A stretch of DNA of 55,459 nt. Origin: a virus. Within the stretch, counting starts at the first letter, position 1. Each line of letters starts with the position of its first letter. The notes under the pieces are model-generated. The model was not told the DNA's origin and searched no databases. It saw only the letters and a list, made by a program, of their open reading frames with translations. The stretch spans positions 1 through 55,459 of IMG/VR virus record IMGVR_UViG_3300047476_000267; one strand, given 5' to 3'. Of this stretch, positions 12,663-26,566 are shown piece by piece. A program made the translations under genes and the position numbers.

Positions 12663-13115
12663 ATGTTGCATAGCGCCCAAACAGATGAAACTAAAGCCCT
12701 TGCATCCACACTTTTGCTTGAACATGCGGGAGTCCAGCCATGCGCTGATTTCCAAGCACTGTTCTGGGTTGGGGAGGATAATCACATTGAATGGGTCATT
12801 GGCTACACAGCCTTTATAGGAAAGACTTGCCAAATGCACATGGTTAATTTAAAAGGAGGCTATACACCCAAGGGATTGCTCTTTGGTGCATTTGATTATC
12901 CTTTTAACTTCCTTGGTCTTGAGAAGGCGTTTGGAATTGTGAACAGCCTCAATACCAAGGCGATGGAGTATGACAAAAAACTGGGATTTAAAGAAGCCAT
13001 CCGTTTCCCAGGGATGCACTGTGATGGCGGTGATTTAGTAGTATTTGAAATGAATAAAGCTGACTGTCGCTGGATTAGGGAGCGGGTAAAACATGAAACA
13101 GAATTGGTCTCGTAG
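12663..13115 (+). CDS. GNAT-family acetyltransferase-like protein
   Basis: 150 residues. GYTPKGLLFGAFDYPFNFLG and then AFGIVNSLNTKAMEYDKKLG followed by FKEA form the GNAT motif A/B region, including the NSLNTKAMEYDKKLGF segment typical of N-acetyltransferases that place a substrate after an alpha helix. ATG directly follows the previous stop; the next gene begins 23 bases before its end. GNAT genes are common in phage structural modules; substrate is not known. Confidence 0.65.
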   Translation: MLHSAQTDETKALASTLLLEHAGVQPCADFQALFWVGEDNHIEWVIGYTAFIGKTCQMHMVNLKGGYTPKGLLFGAFDYPFNFLGLEKAFGIVNSLNTKAMEYDKKLGFKEAIRFPGMHCDGGDLVVFEMNKADCRWIRERVKHETELVS

Positions 13116-15303
13116 AGAGTTAGAAGCCTTTGGCGAACCCCTAGGCGATAGCGTTACTCAGCGTAAGCTGGGTGGTGGATATATTTGCGGTGGCGGCGGT
13201 AAAGGCGGTGGCGGCGGTGGCGGATCTCCTCCCCCAGCATCACAATCTGTTACGCAAACCTCCATCCCTGAATATGCACGCCCTTATGTAGAGGAAATGC
13301 TTGGCAAATCTAAGGCTCTAACTGATATTGGTCAAAATCCCTATCAGGCTTACGGTGGTCAGCGCATCTCTCAGTTTTCTCCTTTGCAACAACAGGCTTT
13401 TTCTAATGTTGCATCGCAAACAACTGCTGGTCAGTTAGTTCCAGCTACCGAACTGGCTGGCGCTGCTGGTCTTGGATCTCTGGGAATTGCTGGTCGTGCA
13501 GCTGGTGCTGGTCAGGATTATTACCGCTTAGCCACAGACCCAACATCTCAGGCAGCGTTCATGTCCCCGTACATGCAAAATGCGGTAGATCGCCAAAAAT
13601 TTGAGGCAGTTCGTGATTACTACAAAACGATGCCAACTTTGGGTGCACAAGCTACAGCTGCTGGTGCTTTCGGTGGTAGCCGTCAGGCTATTCAAGCAGC
13701 TGAGGCACAGCGCAACCTCAATCAGCAGTTGCAAAATATTCAAGCAGCTGGCACTCAACGTGCATTTGAGGCTGCTCAGCAAGCTCAACAATATGGTGCT
13801 GGTCTTGGACTGCAAGGATACGGAACGGCTCTACAAGGTTTGGGTCAGGCTGGACAGGCTGGCGCTACCCTTGGTCAGCTTGGTCAAACTCAGTTTGGTC
13901 AGCAACAGGCTATCAATCAAGCCCAGCAGCAAGTGGGTGCGGTGCAACAAGCACAAGCACAACAGGCTTTGGATTTGGCATATCAAGATTTCTTAAAGCA
14001 ACGCAACTATCCATATCAGCAATTGGCATTTATGTCCGATATGCTGCGTGGCTTGCCACTCTCTCAGTCTGCCCAGCAGATCTATACAGCACCTCCAAAC
14101 TTAGCATCTCAATTAGGCGGTCTTGGTATGGCTGGACTTGGTATCTACGGCATGTCTGGTGGATTCAAAGGCAGAAAAGGTGGATTGCCGAAAGACTTTG
14201 AAGAGGTCAAAGGCTACAGTGTTGGCGGTGATATCAAGATGATGTCTACCGATCAGCTAGAGCAATTGCTAGAAAACCCCAACTTGACACCCATAGAAGC
14301 CCAGATGGTGGAGCAGCAGCTGATGCTACGCAGACGGATGGAGATGAATCCAGAGTCCGATACGATCATGCAAAGCTCTGGCATCGCTTCGATCCCAACG
14401 GGCAACATGGTTCCTATGGAAGATTCCATGGCTGGCGGTGGTATTGTGGCATTTGCCAAAGGCGATAGCGTTAAAGACACCTCTGCTGAGTACGAAAAAC
14501 TGCTCATGGAAGACATTAAGAGACGTCAGAAGATGCTTGAATCTGGTGATCCATATGCCAAATCAGAAGCCAGAGAAGCCAAGATTGAAGAAGAGCTTGG
14601 CAACATAAAGAAATATTCTCCGTTCAAGGCTTTGACTATGGCTGGACTCGGAACACTGGCTGGCACTTCTAGAGATGCTCTAACCAACCTTGGATTGGGC
14701 GGTCTTGAAGGGGTCAAGAGTTACGCACAGTCTCAGCGTGAACAGAGTGATCTTAACAAGCTCCTATTGCAACAGGCTGGTGAGCGTGAGCGTTCCAAGT
14801 TTGGTCGTGAGACTGCACTTCTTGGTTCTCAGCAGACTGCTTTGGGTCAGCTATTAGGTCGCAGATCCGCAGCTGAAACGGCTGCTGCTGCCCGTGCTGA
14901 TACAGCTGTTAAAAACAGGCAGTTAGATTTAACCCGTGCGCAGAACGCATATAGTTCTTTATATAACAATGCGGTTGAGGAGCTTACAAAGTCTTCCAAA
15001 CCAGGCGGGATCAACTACAAGAAATACAAAGAAGACCCAGACGCATTGAAGAGAGATGCCAGAAACATGGCGCTTGGAGAGCTATCTCCAGATCTTCGTA
15101 CTTTGCTTGGATTCCAAATGCCAGCTACACCAGCTGCGCCAGCTGCAACACCAGGCGCCGCTCCAAGTGCTGCAAAACCAACGGTTAGAACGCCGCCACC
15201 AGCAGCTGTTCAACAGTTAAAAAATAACGATACTCCTGAAACAAGGCAGCAATTTGATGCTATATTTGGGTCTGGTGCAGCGCAAAGAGCGCTAGGCAAA
15301 TAA
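13093..15303 (+). CDS. Large internal virion or ejection-type protein
   Basis: 736 residues. It starts MKQNWSRRELEAFGEPLGDS then LGGGYICGGGGKGGGGGGG, a recognisable opening of a protein family in environmental podovirus-like phages. Residues about 180-320 are rich in Gln and Ala and strongly helical; a MAGGGIVAFAKGD element follows, then a charged helical stretch and a Pro/Ala-rich tail. No catalytic motif. Placed between a GNAT gene and the giant polyvalent gene, it is probably packaged inside the capsid or tail and ejected with DNA. Role inferred. Confidence 0.55.
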   Translation: MKQNWSRRELEAFGEPLGDSVTQRKLGGGYICGGGGKGGGGGGGSPPPASQSVTQTSIPEYARPYVEEMLGKSKALTDIGQNPYQAYGGQRISQFSPLQQQAFSNVASQTTAGQLVPATELAGAAGLGSLGIAGRAAGAGQDYYRLATDPTSQAAFMSPYMQNAVDRQKFEAVRDYYKTMPTLGAQATAAGAFGGSRQAIQAAEAQRNLNQQLQNIQAAGTQRAFEAAQQAQQYGAGLGLQGYGTALQGLGQAGQAGATLGQLGQTQFGQQQAINQAQQQVGAVQQAQAQQALDLAYQDFLKQRNYPYQQLAFMSDMLRGLPLSQSAQQIYTAPPNLASQLGGLGMAGLGIYGMSGGFKGRKGGLPKDFEEVKGYSVGGDIKMMSTDQLEQLLENPNLTPIEAQMVEQQLMLRRRMEMNPESDTIMQSSGIASIPTGNMVPMEDSMAGGGIVAFAKGDSVKDTSAEYEKLLMEDIKRRQKMLESGDPYAKSEAREAKIEEELGNIKKYSPFKALTMAGLGTLAGTSRDALTNLGLGGLEGVKSYAQSQREQSDLNKLLLQQAGERERSKFGRETALLGSQQTALGQLLGRRSAAETAAAARADTAVKNRQLDLTRAQNAYSSLYNNAVEELTKSSKPGGINYKKYKEDPDALKRDARNMALGELSPDLRTLLGFQMPATPAAPAATPGAAPSAAKPTVRTPPPAAVQQLKNNDTPETRQQFDAIFGSGAAQRALGK

Positions 15304-15319
15304 TTTGAGGATTTAACTT

Positions 15320-18300
15320 ATGGCGACTAAGCCTGAGAACGTCAACCCGTTTGCGAAATACGTTGAACAATCAGGCGAAGAAGCCCCTCCAGAAAATCCG
15401 TTTGCCAAATATCTACAGCCAGAAGAACCAAGCCAACTACTAGACCCAGCCAAAATGATTGCAGCTGGGGCTATTGGCCCTACAGCTGCCATTCCTCTAG
15501 GTCTAGAGTCATCAGTCCGTAACATCCCCCGTCAGGTCGTAGAGCAACAGGCTGTAACTCCTGTTGAAAAGGTTGGCCCATTAACATTTGCTGAGGAACT
15601 GGTCAGAAAAGGTCCAGCCCAGTTGCTTGTTAATACCGCTAGAGCTTTCATCAAAAACGCTACGGGCGAGTCCTTTGAGAAGCAACAGGAGCGCCAAAAG
15701 CAAGACGAGATTGCTGTCGACCGTGCCATCTCAAACCTACCGAGAGTTCCAGGGCTATCTCAGCTGGCAGAAGCTGGCGAAAAAGTATCTGGCAAACTGC
15801 GTGAGAGCGTATCCACGGCTGGTAAACAGGCAATTGCCGACTCTCAGATTGAGGGTAATTTATTAGAAGCTATCCAGAACCAGAATATCGACAACCTATC
15901 CTTTGGTAAAAACCCATCTTTCATGGGTTATGCCTTACAGGGATCTCAGGTTCTTGGCTCGTTAGCCCCAATCATCGGCACAGCCATTATGACTAAGGGC
16001 AGCTCCAAAGCTGTCGGTACAGTCGGTTTTGGTATGGGTGCTGGTGAGGCAGTCCAAGACGCCCAGCAATACATCTCCAAGCTCAGTGATGAAGAGTTAA
16101 TGGCAAACAGCCCGTACTTCAAGAAGATGGTTGAAGACGGGGTCAATCCAGCAGAAGCCCGTAAGGTAGTCACTGACAAAGCGGCTGAGTATGCAGCCCA
16201 GCTACAGGGTTCTGTATCGGCATTTGGTAGCGTTATCACTGGTAAGTTAATCACTGGTCAGTTCGACAAGCTGATGACTGGTCCAGTCAAGAATCGCTTA
16301 GGTCGTATAGCACTCGGTACTACAGCTGGCGCAGCAGAGGAAGGCACACAGGAGTTCCTAGAAGGTATCGCCAAGGACTTGGGTATTAACAAATCTGTTA
16401 TCAAAGAGATCGGCGAAGAGTCTTTTGCTAACTTTGTTCTCGGTGCAATTGGTGGTGCTGGTCCAGGTGCGTATCGTGGCGCAGTGGCTAAGACAAAGGA
16501 AGAGGCTGAGGCGGCAGCTAAAAAGCCAACCAGAGAACAAGTTGATGCCCAGATGCGCTTGGCACTTGGCGAAGAAGGTGTGCCTCCAGCAGTTCCACCA
16601 GCAGCTGTAACGCCACCCATTACACCAGCTCCTACTCCAGCAGAGCCAGCAGCCGAGCCAGCGTTAGAGGAAGAGATTGTTCAGCCTACGCCTCGTGCAG
16701 TCGCTCCTACCCCCATGCTATTGCAGACCGCTGGATTGCCTCCACAAGTCGCAGATCAGGTTCAAAACTTAGAAAGTCAGTTCCAATTAATTGAACAACG
16801 CAAGCTCGATCCCAACCTGACAAACGAAGAAGCAGAGATATTCCAAGAACGTCAGAACCTTATTCAGCAGCAGATTGCCCAGCTAATCCAAGCTCCAGCG
16901 CCTGAGATTCAAGCGCCAGCTATTGCAGAAGCTCCTCCAATTGACGAAGAGTTGCTTGCTGACATTCAAGAGCGTGGTGAGCCTATTGAATCCCGCATGG
17001 ATGCAGAACAGCGCCTATCGAATGGCGAACAGATCTATGCCTTCCCTGAGCAAGACGAAGGGCGCCCAACGCCAATTACTAGCGTAGATCAGCTGGCAGC
17101 CTACACGCCAGATCAGATGATGGCGTTGCCATCCGTAGCTCCAGTTGCCGAAGAGGTAGTGCGTGAGCCAGAGGTAGCTGCACCGCCAGTTGAAGAAGCT
17201 GCGCCAACAGAAGCACCAGCATTGACTCAGGCTGAGATCAACCAGCAACGCCAAGCAGAAAGACGTGCAGCTGCTGAGGCTGGTACAAAACCGCTTCCTG
17301 AAGAGCCAGAGGCAATGCTCAAGCGTCAAAAAGGATATGAAGAGGCTAGGGCTAAATATGCCGCTGATATGGATCCAATGTTTGTTTATAAAGCGCTTGA
17401 ACTTGCTGATAGAGATCTAGAAATGAGAGAAGAAGCTCTTCCAGAATTAAGAAAAATGGAAGAGATGGGTTTAATCAAAATAAAAAAGGGTAAACGTAAA
17501 TCCTTTTATCTTGGACAGGGAGCAAAAGAAGCTGGTTTAACTAATGAACTGTCTTTCTCTGGCTATCAAGATGTAGTTAATTATCTTTCTGCAAAGCCAA
17601 AAACAATCGTTGAGCTTCCCAAGAAAGAAGAAGCGCCAGCTATCAAGGTCACGCCCAATAAGATCTTTACTGAGGATGCCGCTACCAAGGCACGCAATCG
17701 CCTACGTTCCAAACTCAATCAGCTGAACTCTGGCATAGATCCTGAGTTCTTGATTGATGGCGTAACCCTATCTGGCTACCACATTGAGAAGGGTGCTCGT
17801 ACCTTTGCAGCCTACGCTAAGGCGATGATTGCTGACCTTGGCGATAAGGTTAGACCTTATCTCAAGTCTTGGTACATGGCTGTCAAGTTTGATCCACGCT
17901 CGGCTGAGTTTTCCAAAGAGATGGATGATGAGGCTACCGTAGACAAATACAAAGATGAAGAAACAACAAGCATCGCCGATCCAGACGTCAAGTTCAAGGT
18001 TGCCGAGGATATCTCCAAATACTTCTTGGCAGATGGTAGCTTCAAAGATATCGTAGAAGCCCGTAAGTTCATCAGCAACATCACCAAACAAAAGATTGAG
18101 CCTGGCACAGCTGAGGCTAAAGAGGCAGATGAGGCCATCGAAGTTGGTGTAGTCTTGGCTGCTCGAAAGATTGCAGCACGCAATAAGCCAGCCGATCAGA
18201 TATATGATGACTTGGTAGATCTATACAACCGACAGCCAAATCTATCTGTTCGCTCTTCAACCAGCATTAAAGAGCAAGCCTATTCCACCCCAGCACCTTT

Positions 18301-21300
18301 GGCGTATGTTGCATCACAGTTGGCAGATATCAATAAGGACACCACGGTATACGAGCCAACCGCTGGTAACGGCATGCTGTTGATTAATGCAAACCCTAAG
18401 AATGTCATAGCTAATGAACTTAATGGCACTCGCCTTGAGATGCTCAAGCGTGTATTGCCTGGTGCAGAAGTAGTTAACAAAAACGCTCTTAGTTTCGATC
18501 CAACCCTTTCTGATCGTGTTATTGCCAACCCGCCATTTGGTGCTATTGGCGAAGAAGTTACTGTAGCTGGGAATAAGACAAGAGAGATTGACCATGCGAT
18601 TGCTTATAAGGCATTAGGTCGCATGCCAGTTAATGGCAGAGCAGTGCTAATTGTTGGCGGTGTTCTTGGAGATTCAAACGAGAAGAGAGTAGATGGCTAC
18701 CGTTCTGCGCAAAAACGTAACTTCTATTTCAACCTCTACAAAAAATACAACGTAGTTGACCATTTCTCCGTAGCTGGAGATATGTATAAGAAACAGGGAG
18801 CTGCCTACCCTGTCGATGTAATTGTGATTGCTGGCAAAGGTGGCGAATCAATCGACCTACCAGCTGCCAATTTGCCAAAAGTCTATAGCTCGTATGAGCA
18901 ATTAAAGGAGAAGCTAGATGAAGCTAGTCGCATGGTATCCAGAGGGGCTGAGCGCCCCGCCAGAGCTGACATCGGTGAAGCTGCCGTTGGGGAAGGTGAA
19001 CCACAAGCAGTGGGTCGAGGCGCTGTCCGACCGAGTGAGCCAGCTGGCGCAGAGCGAGCCAGACCCGAAAGAGGCGAGCCTACAGGCGTGTCGGCTGCTA
19101 GACCTACCCCTAGAGGACAACCCAGTGGAGCTAGGGCAGAACCTCGTGCAGAACAACCTAAACCTACTGACGTATCTGAACGTGGCAGAGTTGAAGGAAA
19201 ACCCGTTCCAAGAGGTGAAGGAGAGCAACCCGCTGGCAGAAGAGGCGCTGAAGAACGTAGACCTAGCGAGCTGGGTGGAATTAGCGTTGTCTCAGGTGAG
19301 CGAGTCAAGTCTGGACTCGTAGAGCGTAGAGGCGAGGAAGTCGAGACCGAGCAACAGGCAACCTACGAACCTAAATCTCAGGCCACATCCGTTGGTACAT
19401 TAGTGCCACGGGCTATGCGTGACTCCATCGAGCAGTCTCTCCAGAAGGTTGAGAACGAGATGGGTAACCTTGATGAATACGTGGCTGATAACCTAGGCAT
19501 GGATTTGGAGACCTTGCGTGAGGACTTCTCCGCAGAACAAGTTGATGCTTTAGCACTAGCCATCCGTAACGCTGAGGCTGGTAAGGGTTTCATTATTGGC
19601 GACCAGACTGGTATTGGTAAAGGTCGTGTTGTGGCTGCCATGATTAAGTTTGCTATCAAGAACGGCAAGATCCCAATCTTTGTTACTGAGAAGCCAAACC
19701 TTTACTCTGACATGATTCGAGATCTAGACGATATTGGCATGACCAAAGAGTTAGCGCTTGACACAAACAGACCAAAGGTATTTATCACCAATGGTGGTGA
19801 GTCTATCCCCTATCAGCTACTCCGCAAAAAGGGTGACGAGGTAGAGGAAATTAACCTTACCCTGAAAGCTCCCAAGTCAGGCAAAGCGCTTGACGGCATG
19901 ATGGAAGAGATGCGCAACAAGGACAGCATCGGTGATTACAAGGTCATCTTTACTACCTACAGCCAGCTCCAGAACGTCAAGGGCAAGGACACAGAACGCC
20001 AAAAGTTCATTAGTAACTTTGGCATGGATAACTACATGATTTTTGATGAGTCGCACAACGCTGGTGGCGGTGGCGAAACTCAAGCAAGAACCAAGGATCA
20101 AAGAGAAGCAGCCAAGAAAGGCGAGAGTCTTAGCACTGGTCGTGCTGGTTTCGTACGTAATCTAGTACGTAATGCCTTTGGAACATTCTTCTCATCGGCT
20201 ACCTACGCCAAACGCCCAGATGTGATGGACTTGTATTCCAGCACAAACATGATGCTGGCAGTAGATAAGCCAGCGGAGTTAGCAGAAGCGATTAAGCGTG
20301 GCGGTGTGCCGATGCAGCAGATTGTGGCAACCATGCTGACCAAAGATGGTCAATATATTCGCAGAGAGAGAACTTTTGCTGGCGTAGCTTACAACACTGT
20401 AGACACAGCGGTAGACAAACAAACTGCTGAAAACATGGCAACAGCTATGCGTGAGATCCTTTCGTTCTCTCGCTCCAAGGACATTGTCCTTAAGCAGATG
20501 CAGAAACAGTTTGATAAAGAAGCCAAAATGGTTTCTGAGGTCGGTGGTGAAAAAACAACAGTTCAGGGTGCTAACTTTGGATCTGTGATGCACAACCTGA
20601 TTGACCAGATGCTCTTGTCATTGAAGGCAAAGGACTCTGTTAATCATGCTATCAATCGCCTCAAAGCTGGCGAGAAGGTAGTAATGACTGTATCCAATAC
20701 CATGGGCTCGTTCTTACAGAGCTACGCTGAGGACATGGGCATCGAGGTAGGCGGTAAGGTAGATCTCTCGTTTGCTGACCTGTATGTCCGCTATCTGGAT
20801 AAGCAGCTGATGATTACCATCAAATCACCTGATGGCACAAAGAAACAGCGCAAGCTAACACCAGATGAGCTTGGTCCTACATTGATGGCACGCTACAACC
20901 AGATTCGCCAGCAGATCGAGAACTCAGGCTTTGGATCAGCGCCCATCTCGCCTATCGACTATATGCACAATGAGTTGCGTAAGGCTGGATACAAGACCGA
21001 TGAGATTACTGGCAGAACCATTACTCTGAACTACGCTACTGGGGAGCCAATCTTAACTAGCCGTTCAGCCAATATCCGTCAGCGGGTTAATGCAGTGCGT
21101 GGCTTTAACAGCGGTGACACAGACGTCATCATCCTGAACCAAGCTGGATCTACTGGACTATCGTTGCATGCAAGCAACAAGGTCAAAGACCAGCGCAAGC
21201 GTCATATGTTGATCGTTCAGCCAGAGAAGAATATCGACACCCATATGCAGATGCTTGGGCGTGTTCACAGAACAGGTCAGGTAGTCACCCCATCCTACTC

Positions 21301-24300
21301 TCAGATGATGGCTGACATCCCAGCGGAGATGCGCCCAGCTGCGGTATTGCTCAAGAAGATGGCATCTCTGAACGCCAACACTACGGCATCCCGTAAGTCT
21401 GCGGTGACAGCTGAGGGCGTGGTCGACTTTATGAATGACTACGGCGGTCAAGTAGCCCAAGAGTATCTACGGGATAACCCAGAGATTCACGAGGCGCTTG
21501 GCGGTGACAAGATGCTGGCGATTGCTGAGGACACCAACGAAGCCCTAGAAGCCGACATTCGCAGATTCACTGGCTACATTCCTATACTTCCGCTTGCCCA
21601 ACAGGAAGAAGTCTATGCTGACCTGATTGATCGCTACAACGAGTTGCTTGAGCGTGAGAACAGCATGGGCACGAATAAGCTCGAAGCCAAGGCAGTAGAC
21701 CTTGATGCTGAAACTCTGTCGATTGAGCCAATCAGCGAAGACAAAGGCGAGGACTCAATCTTCTCTGCACCAGCGTTTATGGAGCGTGTAGACGTCAAAC
21801 GCACTGTTAAGCCATATAGCAGCCAAGAAGTTAATCAGATGATTACTGAGAATCTTGGCGGTAAGACAAATGGCGTTCTTGCTAGAGAGATGATCTCTGA
21901 GTTTGATGAGCGTGAGACCAAGTTCGCTAGAGAAAGACTGGCAGCGCTCAGAGAGAAAGAGACCGATCAAGTCAAGATCGAGACCCAGCAGTCGCAACAG
22001 CGCTTACTGGCTGACAAGATCCGTTCTGTCTTGCAGAATCTCAAGATTGGCATGCCTGTCACCATCAAAGACAAGAACGGCATGTATGTATTCGGTGTCA
22101 TTACCGATATTAAAAACACCAAGCGCACAGTCAATCCAGCCTCTGGCTCCGACTGGAAGATGACTCTGGCTATTGCCAACGGTGATTCCAGAAGCCTGAC
22201 CCTGAACTTCTCGCAGATCGGCACGAACTACACCCTTGAGGAGTCGACTGAGGTTAACTACCTGAACCCAGAGACCCAGCAAGGCGAGTGGACTAAGATC
22301 ATCGACATCTTTGACAAGGGCGCAACAGTACGGCGTGAGAAGCGCTGGATGATTACTGGCAACATCTTGGCTGGCTTTGCCCAGTATCCAGGACAGATCC
22401 TCAGCTACACCAAGAACGATGGCACTACTGGTCAGGGCATCCTATTGCCCCGCCAGTTCAATTTTGAGGAAGAGAAGAAACGGGCTGATGTCCGTCTCAA
22501 GACCCCAGATGACATGCTCAAGTTCCTTGATGAGCTCAACGGCACGATAGCCAGCGATGACAATATCCTACGCATTACCAAGCGTGGCGATACCTACATG
22601 GTCTCTGTGCCGTCTAACAAGCGTTCTGGTGGCGAATACTTCCTAGATGAGAATCTTAAGTCAATCCTAGGCAAGGACTTCTACAAGCGTGGCTCGGATA
22701 TGATTAACTACACCCGCAGCCCACAAGAGTTCAAAGAAGCCATGGACTACTTGATGAAGGAGAAGGAGCAGTTCTTCAAGGCAATTACCCGCCAAGACGA
22801 AGCTCGTAAGATGTTTGGACCCAAAGAGGTTCAAGACATCGCTGGCGTTACCCAAAAGCGTGTGGATACCCGTAAGGATGAGATCCGTGCCGAGCAGATC
22901 AAAGAACAGGCTCGCCTAAGCCGTGCGATTACCGCCAAGCTCAAGAAGGTTATTGAGGGTAATGTAGACCTCAATATCCAGCGTGATCTGACTTATCTCA
23001 AGAAAGCCAAAGAAGATATGAAGGCAGAGCTGGCTAAGACCAAGCCAGCCCGTGTATCGCCACAGTGGATTCGCACCAGAGCATCGGCAGAGAACGCTGC
23101 TGGCAATCTATCTGATGAGGCATACCAAGTTGTAGAGATGCTGGCTAATCGTTTCCCAGGAGTTCTGGATGGACTGAGACTATCTGTCCGCACAACCAAG
23201 GGCGAGGCCACTGGTAACTTTAATCCCATGAATCGGTTGATTACTGTATTCAAGGAAGGCGCTACCCAAGACCGCACCATGCGCCATGAGATTGCTCATT
23301 CGTTAGAGCAGATGATGACCCCAGAGGCTCAGATGGCTGTGGTCGAGGCATGGGGTAATGCTCTATCTAAAGCGATTGAGGACAACACCGACAAGGTATC
23401 TCAGGACTATTTCAATGCCGTGCTGGATTACATCAACAATCCAACCGCTGAGACCCAGAAGAAGGCTACTGATCTGATGCCAGATTACAGCTTCTACCAG
23501 TATCTCAACCCATCGGAATATTGGGCAGTCAACGCTGAGCCATTAATGAAGGCATCGCTAGGCAGCGCATGGCAGCGCTTTACCAAGGCAGTCAGCAAGA
23601 TCCTAGAGGCTATCAAGTCTGTGATTGGCTTAAACAACAAGTATGCTGTGCATCGTGAGTTTGACCGCATCATGTCTGGCAAGCAAGACCGCATGACCCG
23701 TAAGATGTTGGTCGAGTACGTAACCGACAACGCCGATGCCTTGAAGTTCCTCAATAACGTAGAGGACTTTGATAAGCGCTTTGAGGAAGATGGACTAAAC
23801 CACACCCCAGTCAAGCCAAGCCGTAACGTTAAAGACATGCTGCTCGGTGGATTCCGTGGTGCAAAACAGATCTACAACGACACTCTAAACTCGCCTCTCA
23901 TGGCAGCTCAGGCGATGGGTGGCAAGATTGCCCGTGCCGTAACTTATGCCCGTAATAAGAACATCTGGTTTGGTGCTGGTTTGGAGATGGCTGATCTGGC
24001 GATGCAGAAAGCCAAAGGATTAGATGGTTTACTGCGTGATGGAGAGATGCGTGCTGTTGCCTCGATTGCAGTCACCAACGCCTTGCATGCTGGTCACGTA
24101 GCCTCTGAGGTCATTATCCGTGGCGCACTGGCGTTTAACGAGAAGACCCAGATGTTCCAAGCCATTAGACGCCCATTCTCGATGGCTAACGTATTGCTGG
24201 CTAAGCATGACTTGATTGAGCGTGTAGGCTTGCAACGGGCTACTGACATGGTCAACACCTTCTTTGAAGCCAAGCGTTCTAAGAGCATCATGGATGAGTT

Positions 24301-26566
24301 CAAGGCTCGTGAACAGGAGCTGAATGATCTAAACGCTGAGATGCGTGATCCAAGGACTATGCCACAGCGTCAAGCCGCCTTGCTCGATGAGATCCTACAA
24401 GCCGAGAAGGGCTTGCGGATGATTAACATCGCCAAGAAGAAGGTGCGCTTTACCGAAGACCAGATCGACTTCTACGGCAACCTTGAGAAAGACAACAAAG
24501 AGTTGCGCACCATGCTCGATAACTGGACTAAGGTCAACGACAACATGATCGACATGATGTTGTTTAGCAAGATCATTAGCAAGAAGCGTGCAGAGCAGCT
24601 CAAGAAAATCAAGGACTATGTGCCCTGGTATCGCATCAAGGATGACATGGAAGACGTGCATACCGACTCCAAGCTGGGTGGTGTTAAGCGCCTAACCAAT
24701 GTCGGCAAAGAGAAACGCTTTGAGGATACGGTAGTCGTTCAGGACATTGACGATATCGTGGATAACATGCTCCACAACGTAGGCATGATTACTCGTAACT
24801 CCATGCGTAACTACGCCGCCAACCGTGTAGCTCAGGAGTATGCAACCCGCAACAGCCGTGGTCAGATCCGTGTATTCCCAGAAGAGGGTCGCACGCCAGA
24901 TGGCGCAGTACGTACCAACATCCTCGTCAATGGTCGCAGAATCATTGTTGAGATCAAAGATCCGCTAATCGCTGAGGCAGTGTTGGGCATGGAGAACATC
25001 AACATGCCAGCTTTAGAGATGCTCAGCATGCTGGCTAACGGCTTGCGTAGGGGTGTTACCACATGGCCTACCTTCCAGATTCGCCAGTTGTTTATGGATG
25101 CGCCAACCGCAGCCTTGGTCACTGGGTTGAAAGACCCAACCAAAGTCTGGGCTGGCACGTTCCGTGGCTTTATCAAGGCTCTCCAATCGGATGATCCTGT
25201 GGTCGATATGCTCAAGTCCTACGGTATTGGTGGCTATCAGTCTTACACCAGAACCCCAGAGATCGAATACAAGAAGCAGATCGGCTTATTGGAAAAGAAC
25301 AAGTTTGATTCTCTGATGGCTTTCTTGGATAAGGTTGGTGACTCCTCAGACTACGCTCAGCGTATCTCGATCTACAACCGCACCCTGAAAGAGACTGGCG
25401 ATGAGATGCTGGCGATTATGAACGCCAACAATGTGATCGACTTCCTTAAGCGTGGTAGCGCAAGGCACGCCCAGTTCTTGACCAAGACTGTATCGTTTAT
25501 GAACGCCTACGCCCAGCAGCTTGATGTCCTGGTGATGGCTCTTATGGGTAAGCGTATGCTCGGCAAGTCTCGTCAGGCAGCCTTAGCGCAGTTGGCTAAG
25601 ACCGCAGCGACCTTTGGAACTTATGTATTGCTGTATAGCTGGATGGTTGGTGACGATGACGAATACCAGCAGTTGGATGACCAGACCAAAGTCCGCAACA
25701 TCTTTTTATCGAAGAACTGGACTGGCTTGGATCAGAACATCCTACTGCCAATGCACACCTCTGCCAGCTTTATGTTCAAGTCCATCCCTGAGTTGACCTA
25801 TAACTACATCGTCAATAAAGGTACGGACAATGAGATGGATGCCAAGCGCCTACGCACCGCCCTGTCTGAGGCTGCGATGGATTCCTTGCTTGGTCCAAAC
25901 CCAGTGCCTACTGGTGTCAAGCCAGCCATTGAGATCATCCTCAACAAGAACTTCTTTACGGGCAGCACAGTCGTACCCCGTGGCATGGAAGACTTGGATG
26001 CAGCCGAGCAATACACTGCTACGACATCCGAGTTCGGTAAGGTTCTCAGTGCCTTGACTGGATTGCCGTTCACAGACAAGCGGGTATTAAACCCAATCGA
26101 GGCAGATCACTTGGTTCGGGGTATGTTTGGAACCACAGGATCCGCAGTCCAGTGGCTATCTAACCTATTCTCAGAAGACCGCCCAGCACCACGGGCTAAG
26201 GACAATCCACTGTATGGCTCATTCATTACGGCTGATGTACCCCGTGGTCGTGAGGATCTGTTCTATGACTTCAAGGGCATCGTAGATAACCGCTACGAAA
26301 CCTTTATGAAGCTCTTGGAGCGTGGCAAGGATAAACAGGCTGATGAGTACTACGACAAGTACAGCGACCTGATTGCCTCCCGTGATTACGTAGTGGGCAT
26401 GGAAGCTGCGCTACGGGATATCAACCGCCAGATTAGAAACATTGGTGAGATCAAGGACAAGGACTTCACGCCTGAGCAGCGCAGACAGGAGATCACGGAC
26501 TTACAGCGCCAGAAGAACGATATCTTGGATGGCATTATCCAGATGCGTTTAGACGCTGGACTGTAA
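15320..26566 (+). CDS. Giant polyvalent protein: methyltransferase + strawberry-notch-like helicase + HExxH module (DarB-like)
   Basis: 3748 residues without interruption. In order: twin NPFAKY elements near the N terminus; a helical region; a Pro/Ala/Glu-rich linker (about 410-660); an N6-adenine-type methyltransferase with VYEPTAGNG (1010-1018) and NPPFG (1070-1074); an Arg/Gly/Glu-rich linker (about 1200-1345); a superfamily 2 helicase resembling strawberry notch/DarB with DQTGIGKG (1428-1435), DESH (1576-1579), SSAT (1625-1628), GSTGLSL (from 1943) and GRVHRTGQ (1980-1987); HEIAH (2656-2660), a metallopeptidase-like zinc site; then about 1000 helical residues with a hydrophobic stretch near 3430-3444, like large polyvalent-associated C-terminal domains. 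By analogy with P1 DarB it may travel in the virion, enter the host and protect phage DNA or remodel host DNA or protein. Its place after the virion genes fits; enzyme activities are inferred from motifs. Confidence 0.82.
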   Translation: MATKPENVNPFAKYVEQSGEEAPPENPFAKYLQPEEPSQLLDPAKMIAAGAIGPTAAIPLGLESSVRNIPRQVVEQQAVTPVEKVGPLTFAEELVRKGPAQLLVNTARAFIKNATGESFEKQQERQKQDEIAVDRAISNLPRVPGLSQLAEAGEKVSGKLRESVSTAGKQAIADSQIEGNLLEAIQNQNIDNLSFGKNPSFMGYALQGSQVLGSLAPIIGTAIMTKGSSKAVGTVGFGMGAGEAVQDAQQYISKLSDEELMANSPYFKKMVEDGVNPAEARKVVTDKAAEYAAQLQGSVSAFGSVITGKLITGQFDKLMTGPVKNRLGRIALGTTAGAAEEGTQEFLEGIAKDLGINKSVIKEIGEESFANFVLGAIGGAGPGAYRGAVAKTKEEAEAAAKKPTREQVDAQMRLALGEEGVPPAVPPAAVTPPITPAPTPAEPAAEPALEEEIVQPTPRAVAPTPMLLQTAGLPPQVADQVQNLESQFQLIEQRKLDPNLTNEEAEIFQERQNLIQQQIAQLIQAPAPEIQAPAIAEAPPIDEELLADIQERGEPIESRMDAEQRLSNGEQIYAFPEQDEGRPTPITSVDQLAAYTPDQMMALPSVAPVAEEVVREPEVAAPPVEEAAPTEAPALTQAEINQQRQAERRAAAEAGTKPLPEEPEAMLKRQKGYEEARAKYAADMDPMFVYKALELADRDLEMREEALPELRKMEEMGLIKIKKGKRKSFYLGQGAKEAGLTNELSFSGYQDVVNYLSAKPKTIVELPKKEEAPAIKVTPNKIFTEDAATKARNRLRSKLNQLNSGIDPEFLIDGVTLSGYHIEKGARTFAAYAKAMIADLGDKVRPYLKSWYMAVKFDPRSAEFSKEMDDEATVDKYKDEETTSIADPDVKFKVAEDISKYFLADGSFKDIVEARKFISNITKQKIEPGTAEAKEADEAIEVGVVLAARKIAARNKPADQIYDDLVDLYNRQPNLSVRSSTSIKEQAYSTPAPLAYVASQLADINKDTTVYEPTAGNGMLLINANPKNVIANELNGTRLEMLKRVLPGAEVVNKNALSFDPTLSDRVIANPPFGAIGEEVTVAGNKTREIDHAIAYKALGRMPVNGRAVLIVGGVLGDSNEKRVDGYRSAQKRNFYFNLYKKYNVVDHFSVAGDMYKKQGAAYPVDVIVIAGKGGESIDLPAANLPKVYSSYEQLKEKLDEASRMVSRGAERPARADIGEAAVGEGEPQAVGRGAVRPSEPAGAERARPERGEPTGVSAARPTPRGQPSGARAEPRAEQPKPTDVSERGRVEGKPVPRGEGEQPAGRRGAEERRPSELGGISVVSGERVKSGLVERRGEEVETEQQATYEPKSQATSVGTLVPRAMRDSIEQSLQKVENEMGNLDEYVADNLGMDLETLREDFSAEQVDALALAIRNAEAGKGFIIGDQTGIGKGRVVAAMIKFAIKNGKIPIFVTEKPNLYSDMIRDLDDIGMTKELALDTNRPKVFITNGGESIPYQLLRKKGDEVEEINLTLKAPKSGKALDGMMEEMRNKDSIGDYKVIFTTYSQLQNVKGKDTERQKFISNFGMDNYMIFDESHNAGGGGETQARTKDQREAAKKGESLSTGRAGFVRNLVRNAFGTFFSSATYAKRPDVMDLYSSTNMMLAVDKPAELAEAIKRGGVPMQQIVATMLTKDGQYIRRERTFAGVAYNTVDTAVDKQTAENMATAMREILSFSRSKDIVLKQMQKQFDKEAKMVSEVGGEKTTVQGANFGSVMHNLIDQMLLSLKAKDSVNHAINRLKAGEKVVMTVSNTMGSFLQSYAEDMGIEVGGKVDLSFADLYVRYLDKQLMITIKSPDGTKKQRKLTPDELGPTLMARYNQIRQQIENSGFGSAPISPIDYMHNELRKAGYKTDEITGRTITLNYATGEPILTSRSANIRQRVNAVRGFNSGDTDVIILNQAGSTGLSLHASNKVKDQRKRHMLIVQPEKNIDTHMQMLGRVHRTGQVVTPSYSQMMADIPAEMRPAAVLLKKMASLNANTTASRKSAVTAEGVVDFMNDYGGQVAQEYLRDNPEIHEALGGDKMLAIAEDTNEALEADIRRFTGYIPILPLAQQEEVYADLIDRYNELLERENSMGTNKLEAKAVDLDAETLSIEPISEDKGEDSIFSAPAFMERVDVKRTVKPYSSQEVNQMITENLGGKTNGVLAREMISEFDERETKFARERLAALREKETDQVKIETQQSQQRLLADKIRSVLQNLKIGMPVTIKDKNGMYVFGVITDIKNTKRTVNPASGSDWKMTLAIANGDSRSLTLNFSQIGTNYTLEESTEVNYLNPETQQGEWTKIIDIFDKGATVRREKRWMITGNILAGFAQYPGQILSYTKNDGTTGQGILLPRQFNFEEEKKRADVRLKTPDDMLKFLDELNGTIASDDNILRITKRGDTYMVSVPSNKRSGGEYFLDENLKSILGKDFYKRGSDMINYTRSPQEFKEAMDYLMKEKEQFFKAITRQDEARKMFGPKEVQDIAGVTQKRVDTRKDEIRAEQIKEQARLSRAITAKLKKVIEGNVDLNIQRDLTYLKKAKEDMKAELAKTKPARVSPQWIRTRASAENAAGNLSDEAYQVVEMLANRFPGVLDGLRLSVRTTKGEATGNFNPMNRLITVFKEGATQDRTMRHEIAHSLEQMMTPEAQMAVVEAWGNALSKAIEDNTDKVSQDYFNAVLDYINNPTAETQKKATDLMPDYSFYQYLNPSEYWAVNAEPLMKASLGSAWQRFTKAVSKILEAIKSVIGLNNKYAVHREFDRIMSGKQDRMTRKMLVEYVTDNADALKFLNNVEDFDKRFEEDGLNHTPVKPSRNVKDMLLGGFRGAKQIYNDTLNSPLMAAQAMGGKIARAVTYARNKNIWFGAGLEMADLAMQKAKGLDGLLRDGEMRAVASIAVTNALHAGHVASEVIIRGALAFNEKTQMFQAIRRPFSMANVLLAKHDLIERVGLQRATDMVNTFFEAKRSKSIMDEFKAREQELNDLNAEMRDPRTMPQRQAALLDEILQAEKGLRMINIAKKKVRFTEDQIDFYGNLEKDNKELRTMLDNWTKVNDNMIDMMLFSKIISKKRAEQLKKIKDYVPWYRIKDDMEDVHTDSKLGGVKRLTNVGKEKRFEDTVVVQDIDDIVDNMLHNVGMITRNSMRNYAANRVAQEYATRNSRGQIRVFPEEGRTPDGAVRTNILVNGRRIIVEIKDPLIAEAVLGMENINMPALEMLSMLANGLRRGVTTWPTFQIRQLFMDAPTAALVTGLKDPTKVWAGTFRGFIKALQSDDPVVDMLKSYGIGGYQSYTRTPEIEYKKQIGLLEKNKFDSLMAFLDKVGDSSDYAQRISIYNRTLKETGDEMLAIMNANNVIDFLKRGSARHAQFLTKTVSFMNAYAQQLDVLVMALMGKRMLGKSRQAALAQLAKTAATFGTYVLLYSWMVGDDDEYQQLDDQTKVRNIFLSKNWTGLDQNILLPMHTSASFMFKSIPELTYNYIVNKGTDNEMDAKRLRTALSEAAMDSLLGPNPVPTGVKPAIEIILNKNFFTGSTVVPRGMEDLDAAEQYTATTSEFGKVLSALTGLPFTDKRVLNPIEADHLVRGMFGTTGSAVQWLSNLFSEDRPAPRAKDNPLYGSFITADVPRGREDLFYDFKGIVDNRYETFMKLLERGKDKQADEYYDKYSDLIASRDYVVGMEAALRDINRQIRNIGEIKDKDFTPEQRRQEITDLQRQKNDILDGIIQMRLDAGL
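18918..19322 (+). CDS. Overprinted gene nested in the giant gene (+1 frame)
   Basis: A 134-residue frame lies wholly inside the giant gene, shifted +1. AAAGGAG at 18904-18910 sits seven bases before its ATG, an ideal ribosome site that the host frame does not need. The product, starting MKLVAWYPEGLSAPPELTSV, has ordinary balanced composition with helical, Leu- and Glu-rich segments (SDRVSQLAQ, LNVAELKENPFQEVKESNPL) and many CTG, GAG, AAC and GTG codons. Over exactly this stretch the giant protein is low-complexity (Arg, Gly, Glu, Ala, Pro), as expected when a linker frame is constrained by a second protein. No homology is recognised, and no signal peptide or membrane helix is seen. Composition and the ribosome site are direct; translation is inferred. 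Confidence 0.6.
   Translation: MKLVAWYPEGLSAPPELTSVKLPLGKVNHKQWVEALSDRVSQLAQSEPDPKEASLQACRLLDLPLEDNPVELGQNLVQNNLNLLTYLNVAELKENPFQEVKESNPLAEEALKNVDLASWVELALSQVSESSLDS

Follow-up and report, generated by a model that had tools for sequence, protein, structure and literature searches.

An overprinted gene in the methyltransferase–helicase linker of a giant viral polyvalent gene encodes a candidate partner of the enzyme

DarB-like methyltransferase–helicase polyvalent proteins, including a Strawberry-notch (Sno) subset, were described by Iyer et al. 2017 (PMC5512222). In phage P1, DarB is packaged in the virion and guards DNA against restriction (PMC5512222, PMC12810830), and a separate 17-kDa protein, Ulx, 'aids DarB localization' (PMC9024508). 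Here, we analyzed a 55,459-nucleotide stretch of viral DNA (IMG/VR record IMGVR_UViG_3300047476_000267, positions 1 to 55,459; hereafter, the window), which carries a giant polyvalent gene. Like the described Sno subset, the protein encoded by this gene has an NPPF N6-adenine methyltransferase (MTase) fused to a Sno SWI2/SNF2-like helicase, together with an LPD38 domain. A term search of that description found no mention of an overlapping gene, whereas the clade examined here has a gene in the +1 frame of the MTase–helicase linker and P1 DarB is without one.

The coordinates of the giant (outer) gene, its domains and the inner gene are given in Table 1. The outer protein conforms to the DarB-like definition, an N6-adenine MTase fused to an SF2 helicase of the SWI2/SNF2 type, on the basis of PF13872, PF13871, MTase PHROGs and the NPPF motif, and the inner ORF lies between these two activities. 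PHROG matches of the outer gene comprise DarB-like antirestriction, DNA methyltransferase and virion RNA polymerase families. Within the giant protein, residues 198-571 and 770-898 matched N4-type virion RNA polymerase, DarB-like antirestriction and endolysin families, which is consistent with an injected multidomain protein. In three pairs of genes (L017/L018, window/L006 and L038/L040), the helicases shared 0.98-1.00 amino acid identity and the inner proteins 0.93-0.99, with just 0.64-0.71 in the upstream MTase segments, suggesting that the methyltransferase region was swapped by recombination.

Table 1. Features of the giant gene and of the gene nested within it (window coordinates).
Feature	Coordinates	Strand	Description
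Giant polyvalent gene (outer frame)	15320..26566	+	3748 aa; MTase, linker, Strawberry-notch helicase, LPD38 near C terminus; Pfam and PHROG
Outer N6-adenine methyltransferase domain, NPPF motif	18137..18940	+	Folded in AlphaFold2; PHROG DNA methyltransferase matches; PADLOC MTase models
Outer anchor motif PVDVIVIAG, end of MTase domain	18809..18835	+	Upstream reference point for the +1 start in relatives
Shine-Dalgarno AAAGGAG of inner gene	18904..18910	+	7-nt spacer to ATG; within outer codons for the conserved LKEKL motif
Overprinted inner gene	18918..19322	+	ATG start, 134 aa plus stop, +1 relative to giant gene
Outer disordered linker, coextensive with inner gene	18941..19303	+	pLDDT below 50, about 30
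Outer Strawberry-notch AAA_34 NTPase domain (PF13872)	19574..20428	+	Pfam
Outer Helicase_C_4 / Strawberry-notch C-terminal domain (PF13871)	21002..21673	+	Pfam
Outer LPD38, large polyvalent protein associated domain (PF18857)	25655..26209	+	Pfam

A first-pass annotation of the window had proposed that a 134-codon +1 frame, preceded at seven bases by AAAGGAG, is a second gene overprinted on a low-complexity Arg/Gly/Glu/Ala/Pro linker. Both the frame with its Shine-Dalgarno (SD) sequence and the character of the linker were confirmed: G, R, E, A and P make up 71% of the outer protein across the overlap, and sequence entropy is 3.30 bits for the outer protein vs 3.71 bits for the inner one. The inner protein has 21 acidic and 10 basic residues, a net charge of -11 and a pI of 4.4. 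However, when synonymous codons were redrawn in the window sequence with the outer protein kept, the +1 frame stayed open in 2.8-4.3% of redraws, so that its openness is only mildly unusual. Because of this frequency, and because P1 darB contains a +1 run of 177 codons, an open +1 frame in the window sequence is by itself weak evidence for coding. The P1 run was rejected as a gene, since its Ser/Arg-rich translation is not protein-like and no SD sequence accompanies it. Two other ORFs of the window were also considered. A minus-strand ORF of 141 codons over the same stretch (18883-19308) was rejected as a codon-bias by-product; its translation is of Ser/Pro/Gly/Leu low complexity, and its frame class is neither consistently open nor best conserved in relatives. 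A 131-codon +1 ORF with a TTG start (13601-13996), located within a DNA-ejection-like gene (13093-15303), is probably not a gene, being Leu/Arg/Lys-rich and devoid of an SD sequence.

The signal above chance instead appears in conservation across homologs, namely in the intact ORF, the SD sequence, the stop site and the frame-specific substitutions. A scan with the downstream helicase domain yielded 80 homologous giant genes, 62 of them window-like with enough upstream sequence. All 62 had an open outer frame and an intact +1 ORF of 128-149 codons beginning with ATG, with one exception in length: in L047, the start is most likely further upstream beside a conserved AAGGAG, giving about 154 aa. 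Interruption of the +1 frame or loss of its ATG was found in 0 of the 62, and distant phage and cyanobacterial relatives carry the +1 ORF as well. At the SD site, the codons AAG GAG were present in 59 of 62 homologs (gene-wide, AAG makes up 0.56 of Lys codons and GAG 0.45 of Glu codons), and in L050 and L062, where the outer residue changes from E to G, AAAGGA is still present. The inner stop fell at the same site in 50 of 62, as TAA, TAG or TGA.

These start signals bear on whether the +1 frame could be reached by programmed frameshifting, which would yield a fusion of the MTase with the inner domain and require no internal initiation. The inner frame does run directly on from the end of the MTase domain. 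However, an SD sequence at standard spacing and an ATG are conserved, even where the outer residue changes, and an inner-frame stop stands immediately 5' of the ATG (TAG at 18915-18917 in the window, and some stop codon in most close homologs). Because this in-frame stop directly precedes the ATG, ribosomes that changed frame 5' of this stop would terminate before the inner coding sequence, and we regard frameshifting as very improbable.

To assess selection on the two frames, substitutions were analyzed in 26 non-overlapping pairs of homologs, and the overlap was compared with the flanking MTase and helicase regions. Outer third positions held a 0.31 share of substitutions in the overlap, compared with 0.56 in the MTase and 0.59 in the helicase; with codons divided as in the inner frame, third positions of the overlap were again the most variable (0.43). 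Conserved outer residues used identical codons at a frequency of 0.92 in the overlap vs 0.71 and 0.73 in the flanks, the excess synonymous conservation expected of an overprinted gene. Among the six frames, the inner translation had the highest mean identity over the overlap and exceeded the outer one in 15 of 15 pairs (mean 0.69 vs 0.56). Cyanobacterial pairs pointed in the same direction, with identities of 0.31-0.47 for the inner protein and 0.25-0.36 for the outer linker. Together, these substitution patterns indicate that purifying selection over the overlap acts mainly on the inner frame.

The same data address the reading in which the +1 frame is an untranslated by-product and selection acts on the RNA or on the low-complexity outer protein. 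Given the outer protein, the window alone leaves a 3-4% chance of an open +1 frame, and codon bias partly opens other alternative frames: the third forward frame was open in 0 of 53 homologs, and the minus frames in 4, 7 and 30 of 53. Against this, the pattern of substitutions matches the codon positions of the inner frame, the inner protein is more conserved than the outer linker, and SD sequence, ATG and stop are conserved; moreover, inner homologs with an invariant Trp persist even where the outer linkers are unrelated. RNA structure around the inner start was not unusual (z -0.64). A by-product is therefore scarcely credible, and the inner frame is almost certainly a genuine overprinted coding gene as judged from its conservation.

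The predicted structures of the two products differ accordingly in the overlap. AlphaFold2 modeled the inner protein with pLDDT 92.7 and pTM 0.87 from 36 inner homologs, as two short strands and about seven helices, with disorder limited to the last four residues. For outer residues 940-1450 (33 homologs), the model passes from a folded MTase through the linker, where pLDDT is about 30, to the folded start of the helicase. The asymmetry that the first-pass annotation took as the mark of overprinting, a tolerant linker over a needed inner protein, is thus borne out by the models and the substitution patterns, and its overprinting reading is strongly supported by these two lines together with the intact ORFs in 62 of 62 homologs. 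When the 134-residue product was searched for relatives, tblastn against IMG/VR returned five, at 62-94% identity; PHROGs gave no match, and nothing significant was found in Pfam, a PDB sequence search, or Foldseek against BFVD and PDB folds. The inner protein is predicted to be a compact, acidic, mostly helical member of a new family with no known fold match.

In 64 unique giant genes with a recognisable anchor PVDVIVIxG, the spacing from this motif to the +1 start that follows it varied little (24-32 codons in most), and an SD sequence usually accompanied the start. This spacing holds even in genes whose helicase is just 43-50% identical, although the exact start codon is less certain where GC content or divergence is highest (e.g. 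L077 and L081). The inner proteins are 131-165 aa in length and occur in a long form (families A1, window-like; A3, distant; and A6, cyanobacterial) and a short form (A4). Alignment of the families by hhalign connected A1 with A3 (98.6%, E 8e-16), A1 with A6 (97.2%, E 4e-11) and A3 with A4 (94.7%, E 6e-8), and more weakly A1 with A4 (58%, E 1e-4); the value for A3 and A6 (99.4%, E 5e-22) is inflated by a Chroococcidiopsis plasmid protein that belongs to both.

In cyanobacteria, a scan of genome contigs revealed the +1 ORF in MTase-Sno genes of Brasilonema, Nodosilinea, FACHB-63, Stenomitos and Rhizonema wherever the linker was covered, and all 12 checkable cyanobacterial matches to the inner family were embedded in the +1 frame of an MTase-Sno gene. 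Of 292 cyanobacterial genomes, five had the helicase, and a solid inner match came from exactly these five; a sixth, weak inner match (E 6e-4) contained four internal stops. Two cyanobacterial genomes had five and three inner-family matches, respectively, suggesting that each contains multiple mobile elements bearing the gene pair. A profile scan of genome contigs with A2, a closer subset (A1 being too divergent), found no relative. No stand-alone inner gene was found among the viral-contig matches or the 12 checked cyanobacterial matches, although strongly diverged relatives could escape detection by tblastn or HMM. As far as found, the inner family seems to be confined to the MTase-Sno helicase genes of one large clade, spanning diverse phages, cyanobacterial plasmids and genomes.

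Outside this clade, Sno helicases on Pseudomonas, Xanthomonas, Paracoccus and Sulfitobacter plasmids and in an Acinetobacter phage (25-32% identity) showed no comparable +1 ORF. Since these related MTase-Sno proteins of conjugative plasmids and the Acinetobacter phage have no inner ORF, the enzyme can exist without the inner protein. In a helicase tree, all 28 inner-bearing rows fell on one side of a branch with support of 70/76, and a single origin of the inner gene is likely, but not proven.

Three further +1 ORFs are positional candidates. In the cultured Bacteroides phage BS-TP4, whose helicase is 33% identical, a 119-codon +1 ORF occupies the MTase–helicase linker, about 390 to 30 nt upstream of the helicase match; its position matches, it has no profile homology to the inner family, and it is possibly a diverged or independent overprint. 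In a Desulfovibrio MAG, the linker is Gly/Ser-rich and holds a +1 ORF of 167 codons, 530 to 29 nt upstream of the helicase match. Its product shares with the inner family an FPVK sequence close to the C terminus; homology could not be detected from this single sequence. On Pseudomonas koreensis plasmid p2, a protein-like +1 frame of 174 codons in an Arg/Gly/Glu-rich linker, 674 to 152 nt before the Strawberry-notch helicase match, is possibly another overprinted gene.

How the inner protein might act can be proposed from this arrangement. Its own SD sequence and ATG would be used within the last codons of the MTase domain, and ribosomes would read in the +1 frame through the region of the disordered linker and stop before the helicase. 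Internal initiation on the giant mRNA would thus yield the inner protein, which could accumulate independently of the giant protein. We propose that it works with the MTase-helicase, either as a small obligate partner or as a regulatory subunit, possibly a chaperone or a regulator of DNA access that binds the MTase or helicase next to its own coding site. In phages, its role could include holding the enzyme for virion loading, as reported for Ulx with DarB in P1.

Ulx offers a functional precedent for a small DarB helper: at 146 aa it is of similar size, and its gene adjoins an MTase-helicase antirestriction gene. However, Ulx is encoded by a separate gene and has no detectable sequence similarity to the inner protein, and homology between the two was rejected (hhalign probability 0.1%, E 0.68). 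As there is neither similarity to Ulx nor a known fold, no direct clue to function is available. The first-pass annotation had left two roles open, a partner of the MTase-helicase protein or an independent factor carried with it. Nothing of the inner family turned up outside MTase-Sno genes, some of them cyanobacterial copies with no obvious viral surroundings, and on this ground we favour the partner. One such copy, on Chroococcidiopsis plasmid pB, has no annotated phage structural genes within the 50 kb surveyed, which suggests that the role goes with the enzyme and is not solely a virion function. Co-occurrence is nevertheless weaker evidence of partnership than it would be for separate genes, because the overlap itself forces co-inheritance, and we hold the partner role to be only somewhat better than an even bet.

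The alternative of an autonomous factor, such as an early host-takeover or anti-defence protein riding inside the giant gene, draws on the observation that overprinted virus proteins are often accessory factors (PMC8227390), and on the acidity of the inner family (mean net charge -9.7, pI 4.4), which loosely resembles that of small anti-defence proteins. Across such divergence, however, such a factor should at some point have become a gene of its own, and the restriction of the family, as far as found, to MTase-Sno genes, some of them in cyanobacterial plasmids and genomes without evident virus context, makes this reading unlikely. The acidity could also be that of an auto-inhibitor or DNA mimic keeping the MTase or helicase off DNA until needed. 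It is consistent over the 62 homologs (pI at most 5.35), and the protein shares its mRNA with a DNA-binding enzyme. Yet the charge balance of the inner protein contrasts with the 34 acidic and 6 basic residues of the 116-aa DNA mimic Ocr (PMC4872106), and no fold match to DNA mimics was found; we consider this equally improbable. The best overall explanation, which we judge to be reasonably probable, is an ancient overprinted gene whose acidic, folded product is an obligate partner or regulator made by internal initiation. The MTase-Strawberry-notch helicases of one ancient clade may accordingly well be two-protein enzymes, with the second subunit encoded in an overlapping frame of the linker.

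A literature search, with subscription journals outside its scope, found no report of the inner gene, and a widespread small protein, probably a partner of the MTase-helicase, appears to have escaped annotation. Gene callers normally discard long out-of-frame overlaps, and few of these in dsDNA phages or bacteria have comparative support; according to one survey, overlaps common to different virus families (at 95% identity) reach at most 185 nt (PMC7017920). Here, the gene is conserved from environmental phages to cyanobacteria, its start signal is built into conserved outer codons, and a confident fold without a library match is predicted, which together make it a clear example of one protein's fold being encoded within the linker of a second protein. 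If true, this is a long-lived, multi-lineage overprinted gene pair and a new protein family overlooked by annotation. It also suggests an unrecognised partner for DNA-modifying enzymes of an important class, whether injected or carried on plasmids, relevant to any reconstitution, and a general search strategy directed at disordered linkers with a conserved, folding alternative frame.

Among known systems, out-of-frame nested genes in dsDNA phages are exemplified by lambda Rz1 inside Rz, where, as here, a complete gene is read in the +1 frame inside another on the same strand. Unlike Rz1, the inner protein has no lipoprotein or lysis features; it is predicted to be globular, its gene occupies the linker region of a multidomain enzyme, and its conservation extends from phages to cyanobacterial elements. 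Cas11 proteins arise within Cas8 or Cas10 genes as in-frame small subunits produced by internal initiation. The likeness, a functional analogy only, is that internal initiation on one mRNA yields a small protein working with a large one, whereas Cas11 is in frame and the inner product is read in another frame with an unrelated sequence. Overlapping genes are thus a known kind of arrangement, to which the inner gene adds a new protein family.
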